DNA of 39,711 bases from contig CAOKNO010000020.1 of assembly GCA_948470065.1 (NCBI GenBank), forward strand, positions 1-39,711, read 5' to 3'. How positions within the stretch are numbered: position 1 is the first letter of the stretch; each line of letters starts with the position of its first letter. Below, piece after piece: positions 388 through 11,196 of this stretch. The position numbers were made by a program, and so were the translations under genes. The notes under the pieces are model-generated. The model was given only the letters and a program-made list of their open reading frames with translations, searched no databases and was not told where the DNA came from. This DNA comes from an uncultured Eubacterium sp. (GTDB lineage Bacteria > Bacillota > Clostridia > Lachnospirales > Lachnospiraceae).

Positions 388-1482
388 CTAGGTTCGTCCA
401 TGATCAAATTTTTCATTCCCAAGGCGTATCTCCATATATTTCGTATATGCACGGAATGCCGCCGGGATTGGGTATCGTTCCTCGGAGTCGGCCGTTTCCA
501 CAAATAAAAATCCCCCTTTGTCTTCTGCAAGTTCATCCACACGGATGACGTACCCTGTCATATGCCATTCCACATGGGAAAAAATGTGCTTTGCAGGCTC
601 TAATTCCTGGATGCGGATTGGAAGAAGCCCTTGCTCCTTTACCCACAGCAGCGCTTCTTCTTCGGACAGATGGCCGTCTATATTCGGAAACTCATACATC
701 CCTGCCAAAAGCCCTTTGGATGGCCGCTTGCGGATGGCTACCTTATCCCCGCCCTGGATGACAAATACCGTTTTCTTCTCCATGCGCCTGGGCTTTGCCT
801 TGCTCTTTACCGGAAGCTGCTGCCATTTCCCATGAGCCTTCGCCTCGCAAATCCCATTCCATGGGCATACGCTGCACTGGGGGGCGCCGTTTGGCAGGCA
901 GACGGTCGCGCCTAACTCCATAAGCGCCTGGTTAAACGCGCCCGCCTGATCCTTGGGCATCACCGCTTGTAAGGCATGTTCTACCTTCGTCCGTACGGAT
1001 TGTTTCATAATATCGGAATCATCTGCCGTAACGCGTGAGATCACACGTAAGACGTTCCCGTCCACTGCGGGGACTGGGATTTGATAAGCAATGGATGCGA
1101 TTGCCCCTGCCGTATAGCTTCCAATGCCCTTTAAGGTTAACAGCTTTTCATAATCCGCCGGAAACTCGCCGCCGTAAGATTCCATTACCGTACGTGCGGC
1201 AGACTGCATATTCCTGACGCGGTTATAGTAGCCAAGGCCTTCCCACAATTTCATCAGACGTTCCTCTTCACAACCTGCCAGATCACGGATGGAAGGAAGC
1301 GCCTTGATAAAACGTTCAAAGTATGGCTTAACCGCCTCTACACGGGTCTGCTGCAACATAATTTCCGATACCCAGACACGGTATGGGGTGGGTTCTTCAC
1401 GCCACGGAAGGATCCTGGCGTTCTCCTCAAACCATTGCAGCAGGGGAGCGACAATATCAGAAAGCCTGTAATTCTCTAACAT
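388..1482 (-). CDS. mutY: A/G-specific adenine glycosylase MutY
   Basis: This base-excision repair enzyme removes adenine mispaired with 8-oxoguanine. The 364-residue protein has the expected order: an N-terminal helix-hairpin-helix glycosylase domain (LPWR near residue 24, IMLQQTRV near 41, hairpin LKGIGSYTAGAI near 117 and the conserved AVDGNV), then an iron-sulfur cluster loop, then a NUDIX-like C-terminal domain with FSHVEWHM for 8-oxoG recognition. The cluster loop reads CLPNGAPQCSVCPWNGIC, so the first spacing is seven residues rather than the six of E. coli MutY. The ribosome site GAGG lies six bases before ATG. It follows the van-like genes on the same strand after a 119-base gap with its own hairpin, so co-transcription is uncertain. 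The length is normal for the family. Confidence 0.95.
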   Translation of the reverse strand: MLENYRLSDIVAPLLQWFEENARILPWREEPTPYRVWVSEIMLQQTRVEAVKPYFERFIKALPSIRDLAGCEEERLMKLWEGLGYYNRVRNMQSAARTVMESYGGEFPADYEKLLTLKGIGSYTAGAIASIAYQIPVPAVDGNVLRVISRVTADDSDIMKQSVRTKVEHALQAVMPKDQAGAFNQALMELGATVCLPNGAPQCSVCPWNGICEAKAHGKWQQLPVKSKAKPRRMEKKTVFVIQGGDKVAIRKRPSKGLLAGMYEFPNIDGHLSEEEALLWVKEQGLLPIRIQELEPAKHIFSHVEWHMTGYVIRVDELAEDKGGFLFVETADSEERYPIPAAFRAYTKYMEIRLGNEKFDHGRT

Positions 1483-1601: not shown

Positions 1602-2723
1602 CTATTGTGCGATACGTTCCAGGCGGCTGCCCAGACGGCTTAGTATTTCGTTGCTGATCGTGCCCGCCCATTGCGCCATATCCTCTGCGCGGATTTCATG
1701 CGTACCTGATTTCCCAATTAAAACCACTTCATCCCCTGCCTGTACCTCTCCTGCTTCCGTAAAATCAGCAAGCATCTGATCCATACAGATCCGCCCTATA
1801 ATCGGGGCTTTTTTGCCATTGCAGAGCACATAGCCGCAATTGGAAAGGCTTCTCGGGACGCCGTCTGCATAGCCTATGGACAACGCGCCGATCTTTTGGT
1901 CTTTGGCCGCATGGTAGGAAAGGCCATACCCTGCCGCTTCGCCCTGGTATAGCATCCGGACGGTCTGCACCCTGGCCTTTAAGGTGAGGACAGGGCGTAA
2001 GTCAACCAGTGCATTGACCTTGTCTTCTTTTCCACTTAAGATCCCATATAAGGCAATCCCTGCCCGGGCATAATCGAAACATAGCTGGGAATAATTCAAA
2101 ATGCCGTAGCTGCCCTGTAAATGGCAGCAAAACCCGGAAATGCCATTCCGATGGAGTTCTTCTATCACCGTTTCAAAACGCCGGATCTGCTCCAAGGTAT
2201 ACATCTGTTCCTCTTGCGACATTCCATCCGACACACATAGATGGGAGTAGATTCCTGTGACTTCTAGGTTCGTCATACGGAAAATCTTTAAAACCTCCGG
2301 GATATTGTCCCACCGTTCCCCTAAACGGTGCATCCCTGTGTCAATCCCGATATGCGCCTTCAGCTTTTTCCCGCTTTGCTGCATCTTATGGGCATACGCC
2401 CCGTCCACAATGGTCTGGGTCAGCCCGTATTCCTCAAGTTCCCCAAACTGGCTGGGATTGGTGTAGCCAAGCACCAGGATTTCCCCTTGGATCCCTGCCT
2501 TGCGCAGTTCAATCCCCTCTTCCGCACAAGCTACGCAGAAATCACGGATCCCCAACTTCTGCAGCGCCTTTGACACCAAAACAGCGCCATGCCCATACGC
2601 ATTTGCCTTTACGGCAGGCATCAAGGTACAATCCTTGGGAAGCAGTAATTGGAACTGCTGGGCATTATGCTTTAAATTTTCAATATCCAGTTCGATCCAT
2701 GCCCTTCCCTTTGCATCCATCAT
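1602..2723 (-). CDS. vanT: PLP-dependent serine/alanine racemase, VanT C-terminal type
   Basis: This 373-residue fold-type III racemase interconverts L- and D-amino acids. The PLP lysine is K39 in AVKANAYGHG and the catalytic tyrosine is Y266 in AAGYGLS. The tail reads GTISNEILSRLG, with Asn358 where ordinary alanine racemases carry a tyrosine (TIxYE). Asparagine there is the known mark of VanT serine racemases. The rest also resembles VanT closely from memory (ILVLGYTNPSQF, HIGIDTGMHRLGER). In VanT this domain is fused behind a membrane domain; here it is a separate gene. It starts at ATG 2723 after GGAAAGGAG, with an in-frame TAG directly before the ATG, so it is not a simple frameshift product. 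Upstream lie the membrane half and the VanG-like ligase. A plain biosynthetic alanine racemase is the alternative, but the Asn argues for serine activity. No biochemical proof is visible. Confidence 0.85.
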   Translation of the reverse strand: MMDAKGRAWIELDIENLKHNAQQFQLLLPKDCTLMPAVKANAYGHGAVLVSKALQKLGIRDFCVACAEEGIELRKAGIQGEILVLGYTNPSQFGELEEYGLTQTIVDGAYAHKMQQSGKKLKAHIGIDTGMHRLGERWDNIPEVLKIFRMTNLEVTGIYSHLCVSDGMSQEEQMYTLEQIRRFETVIEELHRNGISGFCCHLQGSYGILNYSQLCFDYARAGIALYGILSGKEDKVNALVDLRPVLTLKARVQTVRMLYQGEAAGYGLSYHAAKDQKIGALSIGYADGVPRSLSNCGYVLCNGKKAPIIGRICMDQMLADFTEAGEVQAGDEVVLIGKSGTHEIRAEDMAQWAGTISNEILSRLGSRLERIAQ

Positions 2724-2918
2724 CTACCCATACTCCTTTCCAACCCAAGTCAATAGGTAATTGCGAAACCCCCTCTGGGACAGACGCGTCTGTCCAATCC
2801 ATACAAAAGCGGGCTCCGGATGCCGTCGCAAGTCGCCCTTTTTTTGTACAGATTGTACATCCGCTGTTTCTAGAAAGGGAGTTTTGCAATCGCCTAAAGC
2901 TGCAGATGGGCGATCGCT
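2724..2918 (-). other. Spacer separating the two VanT halves
   Basis: This 195-base gap lies between the membrane-protein stop and the racemase start. It holds an 18-bp perfect palindrome (2778-2795), a repeated TGTACA pair around 2846-2860 and a possible 9-bp hairpin with one mismatch near 2887-2918. I see no VanT-like linker sequence in any frame and no convincing promoter. The racemase ribosome site is at its downstream end. Confidence 0.6.
2778..2795. repeat. 18-bp perfect palindrome
   Basis: GGACAGACGCGTCTGTCC is fully self-complementary. It lies about 55 bases before the racemase start codon. It could be a protein-binding site or a scar. No function is known. Confidence 0.6.
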
Positions 2919-3953
2919 TCACCTTGCATTTGATTTCAACCGCCGCATCCCGTATGCCAGCATAAGGGATAGCCCAACCGACAACATGCTGACTGCAATG
3001 TAATGTACCAGCGACTGTCCTACCAACAGCTTCTGCATGTTCGTTACACTGGCTGCCCCGCGTACCAGGATAATGCACAAGGGATGGATGATATAAATAT
3101 ACATAGATACATCCCGTGCCGCCCAAAACGCTTTTCCTTTTACAGAAAGCAGGAGCAGGAACAAAAAACACATCACAGGCAACAGGAACAGATACATGCT
3201 ATTGTGTTTCTGCCACTTCATCTGATACGTCAGGTAGCCTTCCGCCAGCATCCCCGCTAGGGAAACAAGAAACCCTGCGGCCGCATGGCTAGCAGGCATC
3301 CTGATGTTTTGGTTTGCAATCACCGCCCCAATCCACAGAAATACAGGGGCGAAAAATATACCGTTCCTAGTATAAGCGCTAATGGCAAAAATCCCCTGAT
3401 AGCACGCGCCTATCACCGGGATATGTTCTACTAGGTGATAATAACTGTCGCCAAATACTCCGATCAGGTACAGCACGATAGTAACCAGAAAGCCTGTAGA
3501 CGGGCTACAAGTTTTCATCAGCGCCATAACTAGCAGGCAGCCAAGGAGAACGGCAGGGAGATACCAAAGGTGGTAAAACGTCCCGTCAAAGAAGATCTCT
3601 TGGATACTTTCCCATATTCCTCCCAACTGCTTGGAATAAACTTTAACGGGCAGGTACAGAAGTGTCGCCGCTACATAGAGCGCCGTTGTCCGCTTTAGGA
3701 ATGTACCCGTTTTCCGGAATGCCTTCCTGCCAACGGCAGGCGTTTGGAACAACGCGCGCTCATACGGCGCGAGCACAAAGAAACCTGTTACCAGAAAGAA
3801 AAATGGGACTGCGATCCTCCCAAAACAATACGTTACCAAATAATCTGCCGTAGCGTCAAAGGACTTCAACGGCGCCGTATGGATGGCGACAATCAACAAC
3901 GCTGCAACCAGCCGGAAATTGTCAATTGCCCCATAAGTTTTTTTCTGTTTCAT
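2919..3953 (-). CDS. VanT-like membrane domain protein (acyltransferase-3 fold)
   Basis: This 344-residue integral membrane protein has about ten hydrophobic segments. The start, AIDNFRLVAALLIVAIHTAPL, and the following FGRIAVPFFFLVTGFF are typical of the acyltransferase-3 family membrane half of VanT, which is proposed to import L-serine for the attached racemase. The end YIYIIHPLCIILVRG fits the same family. In known VanT proteins the chain continues into the racemase; here it stops at KSNAR, 195 bases before the separate racemase gene. The two lengths together (344 + 373) are close to a whole VanT (about 700). It sits 44 bases after the ligase gene, with AGGGGG before the ATG. A general O-acyltransferase role is the alternative, but the neighbours favour VanT. 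Confidence 0.85.
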   Translation of the reverse strand: MKQKKTYGAIDNFRLVAALLIVAIHTAPLKSFDATADYLVTYCFGRIAVPFFFLVTGFFVLAPYERALFQTPAVGRKAFRKTGTFLKRTTALYVAATLLYLPVKVYSKQLGGIWESIQEIFFDGTFYHLWYLPAVLLGCLLVMALMKTCSPSTGFLVTIVLYLIGVFGDSYYHLVEHIPVIGACYQGIFAISAYTRNGIFFAPVFLWIGAVIANQNIRMPASHAAAGFLVSLAGMLAEGYLTYQMKWQKHNSMYLFLLPVMCFLFLLLLSVKGKAFWAARDVSMYIYIIHPLCIILVRGAASVTNMQKLLVGQSLVHYIAVSMLSVGLSLMLAYGMRRLKSNAR

Positions 3954-3997
3954 GTAATCCCCCTGCCATCGCCTTATGTTCCATCACCTTTTGCTTC

Positions 3998-5050
3998 CTA
4001 AACCCCTGCCAACAGCCGTTCTAATATCTCTTCAAATGGGATTCCTGCCGCCTTCATCATATTTGGATAACGGCTATGGCAGGTAAAGCCTGGGATGGTA
4101 TTGACTTCGTTCAAATAAACCTCTCCCTGCGGGGTTAAAAACATATCTACCCTGGCAAAGCCGCTGCATCCAAGCTTTCGGTAAATCAATGCCGCCGTTT
4201 CTTTGATTTCTTTGGCCTTTTCTTGGGAAATCCGGGCCGGCACATGGATGCTTGATGTCTTCAAGGTGTATTTTTCCGTATAATCAAAGAAGCCCTGCGA
4301 CAATTCAATCTCATCCACTTCCCCAATCAGCAATTCTTCTGTCCCTAAGACGGCGCATCCCACCTCAAACCCTTCGATCATCTCTTCCATAATGACATAT
4401 GAATCGTGCGCAAACGCCAGATCGATTGCCTCTTTTAGGTTCTCTGGAGATGCCACCTTCGTAATGCCGAAGGAGGATCCGGCGCGCACGGGCTTAACGA
4501 ACAGTGGATAGCCCAATTCCTGTGCATATGCTTCTGCCTGGCCTGATTCTTTCGCCGCTTCAGAAAGCGTAAAAGATTTAGGCGATTTTACACCGCATTC
4601 GTTCGCCAGGCGGTGCGCGATATCTTTATCCATACAGACCGCAGAGCTTAACGTATTGCAGCCAACCAACGGGATCCCAGCCAATTCCAACACGCCCTGC
4701 ACCGTGCCATCCTCCCCGTTCTTCCCATGAAGCACAGGGAACGCGCCGTCCAAAGGAAGCCTTCCCGTCTCCTGCCCATGGAACAGCAGGAGCCCATGTA
4801 GCTTTTTATCCGGGGAGACCACAACCGGGGTACAAGTCTTTTCACTGTACCAGCGATCCTCTGGGATGGATGCAACGTCTCCCTGGAACAGATACCAGTT
4901 CCCATCCTTGGATATCCCAATTAATACCAATTCATAACGGCTGGGATCTATATGTGTGATTACTGCATGGGCAGACTGCAAGGAAACTTCATATTCACTG
5001 GAGCATCCGCCAAATAAGATTGCAACCCTTTTTCTATTTTCGAATGACAT
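3998..5050 (-). CDS. vanG: D-alanine--D-serine ligase, VanG-like (ATP-grasp)
   Basis: This 350-residue ATP-grasp ligase joins D-Ala to a second D-amino acid for the peptidoglycan stem. Motifs run in order: ILFGGCSSEYEVSLQSA (11-27), FPVLHGKNGEDGTVQG (104-119), VKPVRAGSSFGITKV (185-199), EIELSQGFFDYTEKYTLK (247-264) and NEVNTIPGFTCHSRYPN (314-330). The FFDYTEKYTLK substrate-loop region and the overall wording resemble VanG rather than housekeeping Ddl. If so, the product is D-Ala-D-Ser, which lowers vancomycin affinity. The racemase and membrane genes downstream would supply D-serine. The ribosome site AGGAGG is six bases before the ATG. No D,D-peptidase (VanXY) follows, so resistance cannot be inferred from these genes alone. 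A Ddl with D-Ala specificity is the alternative. Confidence 0.85.
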   Translation of the reverse strand: MSFENRKRVAILFGGCSSEYEVSLQSAHAVITHIDPSRYELVLIGISKDGNWYLFQGDVASIPEDRWYSEKTCTPVVVSPDKKLHGLLLFHGQETGRLPLDGAFPVLHGKNGEDGTVQGVLELAGIPLVGCNTLSSAVCMDKDIAHRLANECGVKSPKSFTLSEAAKESGQAEAYAQELGYPLFVKPVRAGSSFGITKVASPENLKEAIDLAFAHDSYVIMEEMIEGFEVGCAVLGTEELLIGEVDEIELSQGFFDYTEKYTLKTSSIHVPARISQEKAKEIKETAALIYRKLGCSGFARVDMFLTPQGEVYLNEVNTIPGFTCHSRYPNMMKAAGIPFEEILERLLAGV

Positions 5051-5162: not shown

Positions 5163-5357
5163 GATTCCCCTTTTCTTTCATTGTAAAGATTTCATCCGCC
5201 GCATGTCTTAACAATCTATAATGATTTTCCTAAGAAAGTCTTAAATTCATTGTTCCCAAATAAAGTCACTGCCCAACCCAAGCTTTGGCGACAACGGAGC
5301 TTTACAGCCCAAACGCCTGCCAAAACGCAATTCTCGCATGAAAACAGTGGTAATTTA

Positions 5358-5366
5358 TGGTATAAT
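5358..5366 (+). promoter_or_regulatory. Extended -10 promoter of the ATPase gene
   Basis: TGGTATAAT is a full TGn-TATAAT extended -10. No good -35 is seen, as expected for this class. It lies 97 bases upstream of ATG 5464 and downstream of the in-frame ATG at 5338, which supports the shorter start. Confidence 0.55.
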
Positions 5367-5463
5367 CCCTGTAGAAACGCCCCAACGAAACAAGCAGCCC
5401 GGATCACATCTTCCGGTTCTGTTTCTGGCTGGGCTGGTACAAAAGACTTGGGAAGGATACGAA

Positions 5464-6975
5464 ATGTTTGTTGGAAGAGAAGCAGAATTGGATTTTTTAG
5501 AAACGAAATACCATGCCAAAGGACGTCAATTAATTGCATTCTATGGCAGGCGCCATATAGGGAAAACGGAAACACTAAAGAGATTTTGCGCGGATAAGCC
5601 TCATTTTTTCTTCTCTTGCAGGGAATGCAGTAACAACATGCAGCTTAGAAGCTTTTCCAAAACGCTACGGCAAGCCTGCGCTTCCGGCCCGCTAGACGGC
5701 GCTTCTTTCGACGGTTCACACCATTACTTCCAAAACTGGACGCCCGACGAAGGCTTCACATCCTGGGAAAACGCCCTCTATGGGATGCTCCATCTTCCGT
5801 TTGGAACCAGCCGGAAGCTGATTATCCTAGACGAGTTCCCTTATATCTACAAAGATAACCCCCGTATCATTTCCACCTTACAGAAGTTCTGGGATACGCT
5901 GCACAGGGATTACAATATTATGCTTGTGCTTTGTGGGAGTACAATGAATTTCTTTGAAAAAAAGATCCTCAGAAACAGCAGCCCTCTTTTTGGCCGCCTT
6001 ACTGGGGTGTTTAAGATGGATAATCTTAGCTTTTTCGACGCTGTAAAATTTTTCCCCAATTATTCGGACCAAGATAAAATAATAGCATATGCCGTGTTTG
6101 GCGGGAGTCCGCATCACCTTCTCCAGATCGATCCTTCCTTGTCCCTTGCTGATAACATCAAACAGAACATCTTGTCAAAAGGCTGCGCCTTATACAATGA
6201 AGTAGATTTCCTGCTGCGCCAGGAATTACGGGAAACGCTTCATTATAACACCTTGCTAGAAACGATTGCCCGCGGCAGCGGAAGGATTTCTGAAATCAGC
6301 CGTGATTCCCTGATTGATGAAACCTCCAAAACAGGCGCTTACTTATATAACCTTCTGGAATTAGAGGTCGTAAAACGGGAACCTACGCTGGTGATAGGCA
6401 GCGAACTAAAGGGAAGCGCCAAACGCAGCCTTTACCGCCACACCGATTACTTCTTCCACTTTTGGTATGCCTTCGCATACCAGAATTATGCCGCCCTAGA
6501 AGAAGGGGACGTCGATAAGATGTACGATACCATTGTAAAACCCCATCTGATGGAATATGCCTCTAAAATCTTTCCAGACATCTGCAGGCAGTACCTAAAA
6601 GAACTGCAAGGCAGCCATGCGTTGCCCTTCCAGTACGCCCAACTGGGGCAACTCTTTGGGAAAACTGTGTTCAAAGACGGCGCATCGTCTTACAGCGAGC
6701 AGGCAAACCTTGATATCTTGGCAATGTCAGAAGATAAAACCAACTTCCTGCTGGGGGAATGCCGCTTCAGCGGAAACCCGGTTTCCTACTTTGAATACCT
6801 TGCCCTGCAAAAGAAACTGATCCCTTTAAGAAAAAGAGCAAATTTCTACTATGCCTTATTCTCAGGGTTTGGCTTCGAGGAAAAGCTATGTAAAATCGCT
6901 GCGCAAAACCACAACCTGATCCTGTACCCGCTGGAACAGATTGTGGCTAAAAAAGCGCCCGATCCCACGCTTTAA
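5464..6975 (+). CDS. Archaeal-type AAA ATPase with DUF234-like C-terminus
   Basis: This 503-residue protein starts with the family signature FVGREAELDFLE. It then has Walker A GRRHIGKT (28-35) and Walker B KLIILDEFPYI (118-128), followed by a winged-helix-like middle and a C-terminal part with FWYAFAYQN and NLDILA...LGECRF, which looks like the nuclease-like DUF234 tail of this family. The cellular role of these ATPases is not known. The reading frame extends upstream to 5338, but the first 42 residues read like non-coding DNA, the promoter at 5358 lies inside that extension, and GGAAGG precedes ATG 5464. It stands alone, transcribed against its neighbours, and converges with fbp with only 15 bases between stops. 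Transfer is possible but not shown. Confidence 0.85.
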   Translation: MFVGREAELDFLETKYHAKGRQLIAFYGRRHIGKTETLKRFCADKPHFFFSCRECSNNMQLRSFSKTLRQACASGPLDGASFDGSHHYFQNWTPDEGFTSWENALYGMLHLPFGTSRKLIILDEFPYIYKDNPRIISTLQKFWDTLHRDYNIMLVLCGSTMNFFEKKILRNSSPLFGRLTGVFKMDNLSFFDAVKFFPNYSDQDKIIAYAVFGGSPHHLLQIDPSLSLADNIKQNILSKGCALYNEVDFLLRQELRETLHYNTLLETIARGSGRISEISRDSLIDETSKTGAYLYNLLELEVVKREPTLVIGSELKGSAKRSLYRHTDYFFHFWYAFAYQNYAALEEGDVDKMYDTIVKPHLMEYASKIFPDICRQYLKELQGSHALPFQYAQLGQLFGKTVFKDGASSYSEQANLDILAMSEDKTNFLLGECRFSGNPVSYFEYLALQKKLIPLRKRANFYYALFSGFGFEEKLCKIAAQNHNLILYPLEQIVAKKAPDPTL

Positions 6976-10846: not shown

Positions 10847-11000
10847 AAGATTTCCCATATATGCAAAAAATATACTTTCTGCTCCGCAAATCCCTGATAG
10901 CGCCCCATCCAAAAGCCAAATCCCCGGCAGCAAACCGCCGGGATATGGAACCCTCACGGCGACGCCCAGACAGGCAGGCTCCCAGCAGTATCCAGATATC

Positions 11001-11196
11001 CCAAGATACCCTTCACGGCCGCTCCGCCTATTGCTCGCAGGAAATCAAGATGACAGTCATATAATTATTCATTATATGCCCAAGGATCCCTCTACAGGAA
11101 ACGAATCCTTTCGGCGTCCTCCCCTTTCAGCCCCTTCCCCTGTGCCTGCCACATCCGGCAGCCTACTGATGAATCACGCAACCTCTATCAATCATA
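11001..11196 (-). promoter_or_regulatory. Lysine riboswitch (L box) aptamer
   Basis: The minus strand shows the conserved L-box elements in order: GATAGAGG (P1), AGTAGGC, GGCTGAAAGGGGAGGACGCC, GCCGAAAGG, GGGCATATAATGAATAATTA leading into GACTGTCATCTTG, and GGGTATCTTG at the 3' side. These match the arrangement of the B. subtilis lysC leader as I remember it. It sits between a good promoter and the dapA terminator hairpin. Exact ends are approximate, and the P1 closing pairs are not perfectly clear by eye. A second GC hairpin lies at about 10923-10943. Confidence 0.85.

Follow-up and report, generated by a model that had tools for sequence, protein, structure and literature searches.

What does a vanG-type ligase do when its VanT partner is encoded in two pieces and neither a vanXY peptidase gene nor vanRS regulatory genes lie beside it? 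The question is raised by the first 39,711 nucleotides of contig CAOKNO010000020.1 (forward strand, assembly GCA_948470065.1) from an uncultured Eubacterium sp. of the Lachnospiraceae, a stretch hereafter called the window, in which vanG, vanTm and vanTr follow one another (Table 1). The three genes are, with good likelihood, an intrinsic chromosomal vanG-type D-Ala-D-Ser operon that is reduced, probably regulated in trans, active beside the ligase Ddl and able to give at most low-level glycopeptide protection. A first-pass annotation, based on the sequence alone, had proposed an intrinsic D-Ala-D-Ser branch or a fission variant. The VanG ligase, the separate VanT halves, the failure to find vanXY and the genus-wide occurrence of the locus agree with this proposal, whereas the split is not peculiar to the locus and vanRS is displaced rather than missing.

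Identity of the ligase and of the racemase

The three genes had been called VanG/VanT-like and described as lying side by side in order, which the positions of the open reading frames (ORFs) and comparison with NCBI models bear out. The ligase scores 556 bits against the VanG model NF000091 (cut-off 495) and 314 bits against the VanL ligase model (cut-off 750). Its best PDB match is 4fu0 (437 bits; the next is VanA, 311 bits), tabulated as D-alanine--D-alanine ligase 7, which we take to be VanG of Enterococcus faecalis, and the loop GFFDYTEKYTLK is common to both proteins. In the ligase tree (88 rows), the window stands among VanG-type loci, across the tree from the Ddl of its own genome, E. 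coli DdlB and a Monoglobus Ddl, and separate from VanA/VanB; the grouping with housekeeping Ddl that would speak against the annotation is not observed. This and all other trees were quick ones, built without bootstrap, and do not distinguish gain from loss. The ligase is predicted to use D-Ser at its second site.

The racemase reaches 553.6 bits on NF033131, vanT-G-Cterm (cut-off 460), and 317 bits on the VanT-L catalytic model (cut-off 750). In the PDB it comes closest to 4ecl ('Serine racemase'; 355 bits, against 229 for the runner-up), presumably the catalytic domain of VanTG. In a tree of 102 rows, the window falls into a starred set of 18 split VanT racemases and the Alr of its own genome into a separate group of 11 Alr rows, so that the racemase does not group with Alr. 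Its Asn358 occupies a column that also holds Asn in 4ecl, in 63/63 split racemases and in 37/38 fused ones (the remaining one has a gap), the same column holding Tyr in ten of 12 Alr rows (own Alr included), His in one and Asn in one. The Alr control with Asn, L141, falls among the VanT rows and scores 453.7 bits, slightly below the VanT cut-off. We take this column to correspond to Asn696 of VanTG and to set serine specificity. The lysine that binds pyridoxal phosphate (PLP) and the catalytic Tyr are kept in all 113 racemase/Alr rows. The racemase probably acts on serine.

The locus is intrinsic and genus-wide: a VanG ligase was found in 28 of the 29 genomes of the window's genus (27 above the cut-off), a genus that probably takes in Petralouisia muris and the Lachnospiraceae bacteria A2 and 3-1. 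The window's own genome also encodes Ddl, and at least two D-Ala ligase matches were obtained in 32 of 33 relatives' genomes, the remaining one (G328, home of locus L059) giving one.

The divided VanT and its membrane half

The annotation had further described VanT as split into two genes with their own starts, and had presented this as a peculiarity. The split itself is real: no single chain of about 700 amino acids (aa) is encoded, and two ORFs of 344 and 373 aa are found. It is not peculiar to this genome, since it has been described for VanL and is common among the Lachnospiraceae loci studied here. Indeed, NCBIfam has separate VanT-L membrane and catalytic models, and vanTm and vanTr are defined for the VanL type in the Fig. 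1 legend of PMC11597547. Among 81 loci (the window and 80 kept from one ligase scan), VanT is split in 54 and fused in 20, two have a racemase without neighbouring membrane half, and five were left unassigned. A racemase search through 299 genomes of the family gave 38 above the cut-off, their ORFs measuring 708-853 aa (21 cases), 373-488 aa (16 cases) or 546 aa (one case). Changes between the fused and split states number six on the ligase tree and ten on the racemase tree, where starred branches force at least four per label. VanT fission is thus recurrent and not new. A sequencing frameshift as the origin of the split was ruled out, as 195 bp separate the halves, both have a start of their own and the split recurs across the loci.

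The vanTm/vanG gap is 44 bp, the three genes are separate ORFs on one strand, and purine-rich stretches resembling ribosome-binding sites are visible by eye 5' of the ATGs of vanG, vanTm and vanTr. The 195 bp between vanTm and vanTr hold a repeat resembling a miniature inverted-repeat transposable element (MITE). The gap has 51 matches in its own genome, itself included, of which 38 run end to end, at 84-98% identity apart from the self-match. The ends of the repeat are inverted repeats, it folds into a strong long hairpin, and several other copies have short flank duplications, whereas no clear one is seen by eye at the window copy. No match was found in the 28 other genomes of the genus. This looks like a recent MITE-like burst in which one copy landed between vanTm and vanTr, and the wide gap is ascribed to this putative insertion. 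The repeat was rejected as the cause of the split, because relatives are split without it and the 28 congeners have no match.

The membrane protein aligns with positions 3-330 of the VanT model NF033132 (276 bits; the cut-off of 900 is for the whole protein) and reaches 91 bits on Pfam Acyl_transf_3 (AT3), PF01757 (cut-off 31). It contains DxxRx10H in transmembrane helix (TMH) 1 (residues 11-25), FxxxxG in TMH2 (52-57) and SxxxY in TMH9 (283-287), which are listed as AT3/TmAT motifs in the consulted part of PMC12423673. The D, R and H of TMH1 are kept in 97, 93 and 98 of 99 VanT membrane halves (61 split, 38 fused). The RxxR motif of TMH3 is not found in VanTm: residue 88 is Arg here, and the column of residue 91 is variable over the 99 rows. 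Column 88, whose equivalence to RxxR is deduced from context, holds Lys in 89 rows and Arg in five, the window included. The AlphaFold2 model is confident (mean pLDDT, the predicted local distance difference test, 92.6), and its top Foldseek match in the PDB, HGSNAT (8vli, probability 0.99), is supportive only, given an E value of 0.1. An ordinary AT3 acyltransferase was rejected since the TMH3 RxxR is not kept, which also slightly reduces the odds of the acyltransferase readings discussed below. VanTm is accordingly filed only as a predicted VanT membrane half with an AT3-type domain carrying most but not all of the motifs. A serine transporter has been proposed for the AT3 domain of VanT, its role being given as unknown in the relevant passage of PMC9558356.

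Three related loci have other arrangements of the VanT halves. In L114 (6995-9192) and L088 (7001-10012), a VanG locus has a VanT racemase and no adjoining membrane half, a natural loss or absence of the AT3-type domain, and in L104 (2649-6601) the halves are swapped, the racemase gene preceding the membrane gene.

No vanXY match, and a displaced vanRS pair

The annotation had found no vanXY near the ligase, and this observation extends to the genome: there is no vanXY gene in the locus and no model match in the draft genome (E <= 0.001). Absence is probable and not proven, because the draft is 85.5% complete. A VanY-domain protein on contig C24 (L010) was rejected as an unlinked VanXY, as it has no vanXY model match. 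The same search in the genomes of 26 relatives with a seemingly XY-less locus gave no match in 17, weak ones (29-122 bits) in six and strong ones in three; the strong matches adjoin the ligase in L070, L091 and L104, which were therefore coded XY-positive. All seven XY-positive control genomes gave matches of 178-216 bits. Within the window's genus, ten of the 26 assessable loci have XY; in the other 16, the ligase is followed after 18-229 bp by the membrane gene, gaps of up to 229 bp being taken to mean that XY is lacking (L201 and L211 were left out). Among cultured commensal relatives, Petralouisia muris NM01_1-7b has an XY-positive locus (L055), and the Lachnospiraceae bacteria A2 and 3-1 have XY-less ones (L042 and L046). 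On the ligase tree (78 rows, L051, L077 and L120 being left out for want of an XY assignment), at least 14 changes of XY state are counted, against 19-22 in the ten shuffles listed.

The ratio of nonsynonymous to synonymous substitution rates (dN/dS) is low in XY-less sister pairs, with 0.04-0.11 for the ligase (four pairs), 0.07-0.21 for the membrane half (four) and 0.04-0.08 for the racemase (three). One XY-positive pair gave 0.085, 0.129 and 0.074 for the same genes, and mutY gave 0.046-0.058 in three pairs. The reduced operon looks maintained and not decaying.

The statement that vanRS is lacking applies to the neighbourhood, as no VanS match is present on the window's contig, but not to the genome, which has an orthologous vanRS pair on contig C19. 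Among 36 kinase matches in the genome, the top two reach 385 and 365 bits on the VanS model (next 165), and neither passes its cut-off of 400. Ahead of the 385-bit VanS, contig C19 carries a VanR gene as well as purD, purN and other purine genes. This VanS groups with the ligase-linked VanS of L042 and L059 (Shimodaira-Hasegawa-like approximate likelihood ratio test, SH-aLRT, 100), and the VanR proteins of C19 and L059 share 85% identity. The order in L059 is purN, purD, vanR, vanS, vanG, vanXY, vanTm, vanTr, one ORF and mutY; that in L057 is purN, purD, one ORF, vanR, vanS, vanG, vanTm and vanTr. Seven more genomes (L214-L217, L219-L221) have orthologous vanRS downstream of purD, close to it in six and 5.6 kb off in L214. 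From the coordinates, vanRS and the ligase are about 6 kb apart in L221, 8 kb in L219, 11 kb in L220 and 62 kb in L214, and are on separate contigs in L215-L217. The linked order of L059 and L057, together with orthologous vanRS behind purD elsewhere, thus indicates that purD-vanRS and vanG-T formerly made up one region and have since separated. They occupy separate contigs in the window's genome, and each is flanked by over 34 kb of its contig in the direction in which the other once lay.

The genome has another VanRS-like pair, on contig C3 (L130, 7281-9087, minus strand), beside a hydF-like GTPase gene, with a relative in L218 that is 63% and 75% identical. It was rejected as the cognate pair because it groups elsewhere, though on long branches. 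In genomes G302, G325, G299 and G326, several VanS matches cover only about positions 2-220 of the 293 of the model, in frames of more than 400 aa.

A candidate VanR operator lies upstream of vanG. Direct repeats of 11 bp are typical of PhoB-class regulators. In 66 non-redundant vanG upstream regions, retained from 81 after removal of near-identical or short ones, repeats spaced by 11 bp number 449 against 165 in shuffles, and those spaced by 21 and 22 bp number 293 and 357 against 158 and 192. The motif TCYTAAN5TCYTAA is unique in the window, has 13 matches in 1.36 Mb of DNA (duplicates included) and occurs in seven of the 66 upstream regions. A matrix made from the arrays of four relatives, the window left out, gives 5228-5249 the highest score in the window on both strands (19.4; next 15.8). 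The cited section of PMC4405338 gives a VanRG motif, (T/C)CGTANGAAA(T/A)T, as three direct repeats upstream of a promoter with the -10 hexamer TACAAT. The published VanR consensus occurs upstream of vanG 27 times with at most one misfit (1.75 expected) and 83 times with at most two (28.7 expected), counts not relied on because near-identical loci are included. Sites of the AAGACA-18-TACAAT type are not above chance in the stretch covered by a sigma-70 scan (six found, 7.6 expected).

Table 1. Positions of the operon genes and of associated features in the window
Feature	Position	Strand	Basis
vanTr, free-standing PLP serine racemase half of VanT (predicted), 373 aa	1602-2723	-	NF033131, best PDB match, Asn358, tree
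vanTm, free-standing membrane half of VanT with AT3 domain (predicted), 344 aa	2919-3953	-	NF033132, PF01757
vanG, D-alanine--D-serine ligase (predicted), 350 aa	3998-5050	-	NF000091, 4fu0, tree
MITE-like repeat, 145 bp, inside the 195-bp vanTm/vanTr gap	2753-2897	-	repeat matches, terminal inverted repeats, hairpin
VanR-box-like repeats, 11-bp phase	5206-5249		TCYTAA on the + strand at 5206, 5228 and 5239, with a degenerate copy at 5217
Promoter-like hexamers AAGACA-18-TACAAT beside the repeat	5180-5209	-	9/12 matches; TACAAT at 5185-5180
mutY, first gene 3' of vanTr	388-1482	-	TIGR01084, 324.5 bits (cut-off 286.5)

Next to the operon, mutY lies 3' of the VanT genes in 11 of the 80 related loci too; genes that cluster with it in L062, L063 and L068 were not counted as mutY, reaching 40-46 bits only. 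Divergent from vanG is a gene for an ATPase with PF01637 and DUF234 domains (5338-6975, plus strand), whose true start is probably 3' of the ORF start. Further away, an ordinary lysine riboswitch (Rfam RF00168, 80 bits; 10999-11195, minus strand) lies upstream of a dapA-like gene.

Proposed function, rival explanations and meaning

In the reduced operon as we understand it, VanTr would racemise L-Ser to D-Ser, VanG would join D-Ser to D-Ala, and MurF would build precursors ending in D-Ala-D-Ser, with VanTm, made as a protein of its own, as the membrane partner of VanT. The ancestral VanRS, now elsewhere behind purD, probably switches the operon in trans via the repeat upstream of vanG. D-Ala-D-Ala precursors would not be cleared, since no VanXY was found and Ddl is present, and the resulting mixed precursor pool may give at most low-level glycopeptide protection, or may serve envelope tailoring.

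Several points weigh against this picture. In E. faecalis, resistance strictly requires vanG, vanXY and vanT together, as the quoted portion of PMC4405338 states, so that the gene set of the window should not give VanG-type resistance. A vanXY gene could sit in the missing part of the 85.5% complete genome. Many dS values exceed 1 and several comparisons with the window are undefined, so the dN/dS figures are rough. The VanS on C19 is a little below the model cut-off (385 vs 400 bits). The operator is a prediction: taken alone, the 11-bp repetition in the window falls short of significance (p 0.15), and homologous upstream DNA may retain sequence by descent alone.

The repeated changes of XY state, at least 14 on the ligase tree, and the unlinking of the regulators could instead reflect a decaying, cryptic vanG cluster that lost vanXY and its vanRS linkage as the operon became inactive; incomplete vanG and vanD operons are indeed described in Clostridium bolteae and C. 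clostridioforme, and the portion of PMC5073890 used here terms the vanG operon non-functional. Decay is nevertheless rather unlikely, as vanG, vanTm and vanTr are all intact, the racemase retains its PLP lysine and catalytic Tyr, dN/dS is 0.04-0.21 in XY-less sister pairs, similar to one XY-positive pair, VanG persists in 28 of the 29 congeneric genomes, and vanRS is kept as well. It is likewise unlikely that resistance is functional here with some other D,D-peptidase standing in for VanXY. The genome has two VanS-like kinases and the VanY-domain protein on C24, and C. difficile can evolve vancomycin resistance by, among other routes, a putative D,D-carboxypeptidase controlled by a dedicated two-component system (dacJRS; PMC11326576, as excerpted). 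However, the C24 protein is weak on peptidoglycan hydrolase models and matches no vanXY or vanY model at E <= 0.001, and the genome gave no vanXY match in a peptidase search that covered the vanXY model and this protein.

That the system does not mainly concern wall precursors, D-Ser being made for another use or VanTm acylating an envelope substrate with VanG as an accessory, appears very improbable. The conservation of the TMH1 residues across the 99 membrane halves would fit such a role, and the AT3 half of VanT has a role stated as unknown, or not considered, in the sections consulted of PMC9558356 and PMC12423673; the TMH3 RxxR is absent, however, with Lys in 89/99 and Arg in 5/99 at its first position and a variable second, and L088 and L114 have no membrane half beside the racemase. 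Quite improbable too is a related proposal, that reduced operons are envelope-tailoring modules of commensal Lachnospiraceae not driven by vancomycin, in which VanG and VanTr would put D-Ser on some stem peptides and VanTm would acylate an outer-face substrate by an AT3-like route with Lys for Arg in TMH3. If it were true, vanXY-bearing resistance operons would be one elaboration of an older three-gene module.

The intrinsic, reduced D-Ala-D-Ser operon, our preferred reading, has counterparts among known systems. It resembles the vanG operon of E. faecalis BM4518 in its VanG-type ligase and its VanT-G-type racemase (by model and best PDB match), and its 11-bp-phased VanR-box-like repeats and TACAAT recall the direct repeats and -10 reported upstream of that operon (PMC4405338, same section). 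It differs by having no vanXY, no vanW, vanY or vanU seen nearby, VanT in two genes, vanRS unlinked and a place in the genus core. With the vanL operon of E. faecalis (vanTm and vanTr), it has separate membrane and racemase genes in common, but its ligase and racemase are VanG-type and not VanL-type, and vanXY is missing. Clostridioides difficile is also a gut anaerobe with VanG-type genes, whose contribution to resistance was long unclear; unlike in the window, vanR, vanS, vanG, vanXY and vanT form one cluster there (PMC11326576, as excerpted). The incomplete operon of C. bolteae is likewise a reduced vanG set in a gut clostridium, without racemase according to the same portion of PMC5073890, whereas the window keeps ligase and racemase without XY. 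The system is thus a conserved variant of a known one, made of known component families. Within the open-licence papers used for comparison, the combination is new as far as searched: a VanG-type module with split VanT, recurrent XY absence with low dN/dS, and vanRS left at purD.

For resistome surveys, a VanG ligase match in gut Lachnospiraceae often comes without vanXY and is not to be read as resistance, and the lack of linked vanRS does not mean that vanRS is lacking. With a free-standing VanTm, it can be tested apart from the racemase whether the membrane half of VanT transports serine or transfers acyl groups. A single family contains both split and fused VanT, with or without VanXY, and XY varies within one genus, which makes these bacteria a natural experiment on which vanG parts must cooperate.

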